Part shown: positions 23,990-58,137 of the stretch, in pieces
How positions within the stretch are numbered: the first letter of the stretch is position 1
Layout: each line of letters opens with the position of its first letter
NCBI GenBank assembly: GCA_913020555.1
Contig: CAJWAC010000001.1
Span: forward strand, 1-64,000
DNA: 64,000 nucleotides
Direction of reading: 5' to 3'
DNA from: an uncultured Polaribacter sp.
GTDB lineage: Bacteria > Bacteroidota > Bacteroidia > Flavobacteriales > Flavobacteriaceae
Made by a program: the position numbers and the translations under genes
The notes under the pieces: model-generated
What the model was told of the DNA's origin: nothing
Databases searched by the model: none
What the model saw: only the letters and a program-made list of their open reading frames with translations

Positions 23990-24074
23990 GGCGTTACCTA
24001 AAAAGGTCGGGCTTTACGTTTTAATCTTTTTTTTCGTTCCTCACAAAAAGGATTTCCACTGCAATCCCTAACGC
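23990..24074 (+). repeat. Structured intergenic element (copy A), three-way-junction fold
   Basis: Outer stem GCGTT(A)/(T)AACGC 23991-23996 with 24069-24074; hairpin ACCT-aaaa-AGGT 23996-24007; hairpin AATCtTTTTT...AAAAAGGATT 24023-24054. Confidence 0.65.
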
Positions 24075-24125
24075 AAAAGCAGTACTAAAAACAATTACAC
24101 TGTTAAACAATTAAACATTACTAAA

Positions 24126-58034: not shown

Positions 58035-58137
58035 CTAGTTTAGCCCAGATTGAAGCATTTGTTTGAGCTCTTTTTTACCTTTTTCAGGTAAAAAAAGCGA
58101 GTGCTGAAAGCTGGAAATAGCTTCTAACACTAACTAG
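58035..58137 (-). repeat. Structured intergenic element (copy B, opposite orientation), three-way-junction fold
   Basis: Outer stem CTAGTT 58035-58040 / AACTAG 58132-58137; hairpin CTTTTTTACCT-ttttc-AGGTAAAAAAAG 58070-58097; hairpin AAGCT-ggaaat-AGCTT 58108-58123. Confidence 0.6.

Follow-up and report, generated by a model that had tools for sequence, protein, structure and literature searches.

The window, a stretch of 64,000 nucleotides from an uncultured Polaribacter sp., carries xylB and xylA on its plus strand, and the gap between the two genes holds a structured element (Table 1). The element begins 7 nt after the xylB stop codon (23983) and ends 51 nt before the xylA start codon (24126). 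Read directly, the plus strand of this gap is GGCGTTACCT-AAAA-AGGTCGGGCTTT...CAATCCCTAACGC. The central hairpin stands on a foot in which GGG (24009-24011) pairs with CCC (24066-24068), and its inner part is interrupted by symmetrical internal loops and closed by an A/T tip. All the pairings given by the original prediction (GCGTT/AACGC ends, side hairpin and long hairpin) are present in the sequence, and the three-way junction that it described is confirmed.

A search with the covariance model of the Rfam family RF01705 (Flavo-1) matches positions 24001-24079 on the minus strand (57 bits, E 9.5e-10). Both copies in the window are above the gathering cut-off of 42 bits, and the segment in the xylB-xylA gap is a clear member of the family. 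The original prediction, whose interpretation is partly supported overall, missed this identity as well as the core exchange and the gene-end placement described below. Its statement that the element is locally GC-rich holds relative to the surroundings and fails in absolute terms, the matched stretch having 38% GC. Rfam files Flavo-1, an RNA predicted computationally, as 'Gene; sRNA'.

Table 1. Genes, Flavo-1 copies and parts of the xylB-xylA element in the window.
Feature	Position	Strand	Basis or remark
xylB, xylulokinase, 496 aa	22493..23983	+	ORF; family named by sequence and position
Flavo-1 element forming a three-way junction (type-2 ends, core type B)	23991..24074	-	RF01705 (57 bits), sequence, orthologous copies
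Outer stem, one arm (GCGTT on +)	23991..23995	-	pairs with 24070-24074; covaries in relatives
Outer stem, other arm (AACGC on +)	24070..24074	-	pairs with 23991-23995; covaries in relatives
Side hairpin ACCT-loop-AGGT (loop aaaa on +)	23996..24007	-	length variable or hairpin missing in relatives
Central hairpin: conserved foot (GGG/CCC, TT/AA) and exchangeable core	24009..24068	-	pairs in the covariation alignment
Core cassette, here type B, including R-Y pairs 24058-24059 / 24018-24019 and tip	24018..24062	-	orthologues carry A, B or C at this site
xylA, xylose isomerase, 438 aa	24126..25442	+	ORF; orthologues in 43/168 genomes of the genus
Second Flavo-1 copy, type-1 ends, core type C	58038..58121	+	RF01705 (46.5 bits)

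Modules, pairing and the constrained strand

Among named sequences, xylA is best matched by that of an uncultured Polaribacter (93%), which points to Polaribacter as the probable genus. In the source genome, 76.5% complete, RF01705 has 17 matches at E <= 1, and seven of these exceed the cut-off. Within one genus, copies per relative genome range from 0 to more than 60 (these numbers are lower bounds), complete congeners such as G002, G003, G025 and G035 having no Flavo-1 at all, and the family is present in at least 41 of the 153 genera sampled in the class. The claim that copies lie between the genes of many flavobacterial genomes is confirmed.

Flavo-1 copies combine two types of ends with three cores. 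Type-1 ends read CAAACAAGTTTAGCC...GGAAATAGCTTC. Type-2 ends, found in the xylB-xylA copy of the window, read GCGTTAGGG...GCCCGACCT-loop-AGGTAACGCCC. The cores are CATCC/GATATA (A), AAATCC/GATTGTA (B) and TTTGTTTGAGCTC/GCGAGTA (C). The length of the hairpin tips lies between a few bases and about 100, and some tips hold other dispersed flavobacterial repeats; parts of such repeats (GATTGC...GCAATGACA; CAGTTCGAGTGA...TATCGAGAACAG) were seen in the tips of six copies (L109, L110, L130, L131, L135 and L168). A third, longer type of ends, CTAAACCCGATTG...GCGGGAAGAC...GTCTTTTCAAA, surrounds most Flavo-1 cores in a genome from another family of the class (G321, L212-L219).

Single-sequence folding of the window element is uninformative, with z about -1 (-18.0 kcal/mol, z -0.97 for the minus strand; -14.0 kcal/mol, z -0.71 for the plus strand), and the evidence beyond chance is comparative. 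Among 29 distinct type-2 arms, partly picked by the pairing of their outer and foot stems, 98.3% of the pair cells are standard vs 88.4% after shuffling, and 18-53% when the columns are slid by 1-3. Ten of the 12 pairs have changed on both sides, and the covariation anticipated by the original prediction is confirmed for all stems; neither of the outcomes that would have counted against the prediction, a lack of further copies or of covariation, was encountered. This includes the outer stem, in which GCGTT/AACGC becomes GCATG/CATGC, GGGTT/GAACC or CCACC/GGTGG in relatives.

Because the type-2 rows were partly selected by pairing, a test free of this bias was carried out on type-1 copies of four complete genomes, the 5' and 3' halves being located separately by pattern and then joined by position. 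Of 66 copies, 62 have Watson-Crick pairs at the two positions of the R-Y step in the core, vs a mean of 21 and a maximum of 36 in shuffles. When three pairs are scored in this set, the non-Watson-Crick exceptions are 3 G-T, 0 A-C and 2 other; in the curated set, 10 of 375 are G-T, none A-C and 3 neither. Retrieval by a covariance model favours G-U over A-C, a bias from which only the orthologous xylB-xylA loci and the separately located halves are free. Had the opposite strand been the folding one, A-C would be expected to be the commoner exception. Since nearly all the exceptions read G-T on the Flavo-1 strand and none A-C, this strand is the constrained one, either as RNA or as single-stranded DNA, and in the window it is antisense to the xyl operon.

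Gene-end placement and replacement of the core

In four genomes of the host genus, the surroundings of 56 copies were examined, using simple ORF rules for the calling of neighbouring genes; the 3' neighbour was antisense to the element in 47 of them. In the same set, the 5' neighbour was sense in 23 cases and antisense in 30. Of 46 type-1 copies, 28 lie 3-15 nt from the stop codon of the 3' gene (mode 12); two copies have spacings of 21 or 31 nt, and 16 have spacings of 59-103 nt. A terminator-like hairpin and a T-run lie within the spacer of 12 of these 16 long-spaced copies, with 5-11 nt between the end of the stem and the element. Thus, type-1, the commoner end type in the host genus, is antisense to the gene and lies about 12 nt past the stop codon or directly past the terminator. 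On the strand of the gene, the order is stop codon or terminator, T-rich stretch, element. The Flavo-1 strand has an A-rich 3' end facing the T-runs of the gene end, its 3' border being sharp and its 5' border variable. The second copy in the window has an antisense gene on its 3' side, whose end is 8 nt away. Type-1 elements were also considered as intrinsic terminators; their sense strand has its T-rich stretch before the hairpin, not after it. In other genera, the elements occupy short intergenic gaps too, in both orientations, and the gene-end rule is weaker.

The xylB-xylA site was followed across relatives. xylA was found in 43 of 168 genomes of the host genus, and the gap is readable in 29 loci. 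An element with type-2 ends occupies 21 of them, a decayed one (L138) included; of the others, one holds a remnant (L159), three a different repeat and four neither. These three gaps (L134, L136 and L139), among them the sister locus of the window itself (L134), contain a hairpin repeat of the GCTTTTGGC...GCCAAAAGC type. At the 21 occupied sites, core A is found 4 times, core B 9 times and core C 8 times. Placed on the flanking-gene tree, these rows require no fewer than 10 changes of core, and sister pairs with support of 97-100 carry unlike cores (B/A, C/A and B/C). The flanks adjoining the ends are alike whatever the core; CTGCTTTTGCGTTAGGG, for instance, accompanies A, B and C. This similarity shows replacement within a standing element and not repeated insertion. 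A requirement of the element for xyl operons was considered and rejected: among 80 further xylA loci, mostly of other genera, a strict pattern found an upstream copy only in Nonlabens ulvanivorans. That copy (L267) is a type-2, core-B Flavo-1 whose flank resembles that of the window genus, which suggests a transfer of the xyl region together with its element.

Replacement was also examined in two complete genomes, G001 and G021, whose flanks are about 97% identical at many sites and whose orthologous type-1 sites were paired by position and flank search. Five orthologous sites have core A in G001 vs core C in G021. At L251/L252, the flanks are 99.3% (left) and 98.4% (right) identical, and the ends match except for two substitutions behind the core. 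The same difference is found at L237/L258, L241/L259, L112/L254 and L249/L256, the flanks of the last two pairs being more diverged than those of the other A/C sites. In seven other orthologous copies, the type of core is unchanged, and L127/L242 shows replacement of the tip. The limits of the exchange fall within the conserved ends. Cores are therefore replaced wholesale between unchanged ends; ends and stop-codon spacing are strongly conserved between orthologous copies. The core C of L252 recurs at another site of G021 (L235), a possible donor judging from this match. For any single A/C case, the other core may have been imported at the same site from a third strain; such import does not account for the occurrence of several cores at a single site.

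Interpretation and comparison with known systems

With moderate confidence, we propose that Flavo-1 is a dispersed, REP-like DNA element of gene ends, whose hairpin core is exchanged between copies, rather than a stand-alone sRNA gene. The fixed scaffold would consist of the conserved, mutually pairing ends, with the inner hairpin core as a separate part. Scaffolds would be anchored at gene ends, past the stop codon or the terminator, and inherited at the same site between species, and the core would be overwritten repeatedly, as a unit, by that of another copy. We infer that the Flavo-1 strand folds when single-stranded and then stalls or is cut, and that repair, by template switching or gene conversion, copies another family member via the roughly 15-25 nt of shared ends. 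Such copying would maintain intact, pairing copies without selection at each site, and would probably not require a dedicated enzyme. Family membership, covariation, strand, placement, core replacement and the matching core elsewhere in the genome are direct observations that support a gene-end DNA element. Such an element with core exchange accounts for the patchy distribution, the few decayed copies, the co-travelling matched pairs and the swaps at fixed sites. Against it counts that no enzyme or donor event was observed. Moreover, the conserved ends and stop-codon spacing could alternatively reflect selection for a host function, and the scarcity of decayed copies is compatible with fast overwriting and also with purifying selection. 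The host function may be, for example, a block to antisense transcripts or the shielding of mRNA ends.

Of the three identities considered in the original prediction, a REP-like mobile element is the best supported, with the reservation that the REP transposase family is absent from complete high-copy genomes. Two findings weaken a processing site in the xylB-xylA mRNA: the strand under constraint runs antisense to the xyl operon, and other xyl operons of the genus have no element at this site. A structured RNA agrees with the Rfam classification and has the same antisense strand against it. Because of this orientation at gene ends, a functional structured RNA, whether a cis element or an sRNA, would have to act in transcripts running antisense into the gene, for instance by stopping their entry. 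An RNA would give the observed covariation on one strand, with G-U but no A-C exceptions. Conserved ends and spacing at orthologous sites also speak for it, the antisense placement suits a block of antisense transcription, and Flavo-1 was graded 'probably' RNA (Weinberg et al., 2010; PMC2864571). However, we find this rather unlikely: no same-strand upstream gene is consistently present, cores change wholesale and complete relatives lack the family. In F. psychrophilum, moreover, Flavo-1 hits are sense or antisense to transcribed regions indifferently, and many fall outside them (PMC9723704). A stand-alone sRNA gene, in particular, fits poorly because upstream neighbours and published transcript orientation are inconsistent (PMC9723704) and some congeners lack the family.

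A dedicated system can also be envisaged: like integron integrases on attC sites, a site-specific recombinase would recognise the single strand in its folded form and move non-coding hairpin cassettes from one docking site to another. Flavobacteria would then possess a cassette-exchange system with tens of gene-end sites per genome, whose cores are swapped by an enzyme that may be a tyrosine recombinase related to IntI. Exchange is indeed frequent, with limits in the conserved ends, and as in attC there is one constrained strand, tips are variable and sites lie past stop codons (PMC2727003). IntI-related tyrosine recombinases of about 370-390 aa, below the family threshold, occur in all six high-copy genomes tested (L343-L349; e.g. 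L345:1255-2412 +). Yet these genomes contain no integron integrase above the family cut-off, none of the candidates adjoins a Flavo-1 copy, and the GTT/AAC end motifs are in the order opposite to that of attC; the dedicated system is improbable, whether stated in general or with such an enzyme. One genome, G013, gives 49 hits with the integron integrase model, a large part of them clustered near 2.09-2.28 Mb.

That Flavo-1 is the REP of a RAYT (Y1 HUH) transposase is largely refuted and very improbable. Its dispersed hairpins near stop codons resemble E. coli REPs, many of which lie within 15 nt of a stop codon (PMC12306157), and the structures of the Bacteroidetes RAYT subclass 2.6 are 'atypical' (PMC6006769); however, neither Y1 transposase (PF01797) nor RAYT-like protein was found in the complete high-copy genomes G001, G021 and G029, whereas Flavo-1-free G002 and G035 have six Y1_Tnp matches each, and the RAYT gene nearest a Flavo-1 copy has its own, different palindrome. 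This gene (189 aa; L068, G018:C33:47845-51180, at 1250-1960) is flanked on both sides by AGACCTCACAGGTTTTTAAAACCTGTGAGGTCTG, likely its cognate REP and unrelated to Flavo-1. A SINE-like spread as RNA, with reverse transcription primed at T-runs, is hardly credible and largely refuted: the A-rich end facing T-runs and the sharp 3' and variable 5' borders would suit it, but no reverse transcriptase (RVT_1) was found in complete high-copy G021 and G029 and no target-site duplications were seen by eye. An autonomous version, its loop carrying a gene, was also sought; 5' halves with no 3' half nearby, and vice versa, proved to be variant or mosaic arms without a long insert. The type-1 consensus had no match in plasmids or phages.

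Flavo-1 has been listed as one of the most abundant families of bacterial 'small RNA' (PMC9029176). Should it mainly be a DNA element of gene ends with an exchanged core, sRNA counts in Bacteroidota are inflated, and its cores would offer a case of fast concerted evolution of short repeats, open to study at single sites, of which we found no description in the literature searched. The paired genomes and the xylB-xylA site provide a ready assay for core exchange.

The window element shares with RF01705 (Weinberg et al., 2010) the family assignment by covariance model, the strand and the central hairpin. The model describes this hairpin alone; the type-2 outer stem and side hairpin lie outside it, and the A, B and C core modules, gene-end placement and core exchange are not part of it. 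Integron attC sites, with the likenesses given above, differ in that Flavo-1 has neither cassette genes nor an integrase above cut-off and is dispersed, not arrayed; the attC order RYYYAAC...GTTRRRY is replaced by GTT first and AAC last, on either strand. Group IIC introns sit behind terminators. Flavo-1 shares this placement, but its orientation is opposite to the gene and two complete high-copy genomes have no intron-encoded reverse transcriptase. With REP/BIME, Flavo-1 shares short dispersed hairpins or palindromes between genes; it differs from them by having no RAYT partner in high-copy genomes and no recognised GTAG-type foot, and by the swapping of whole cores between fixed ends.
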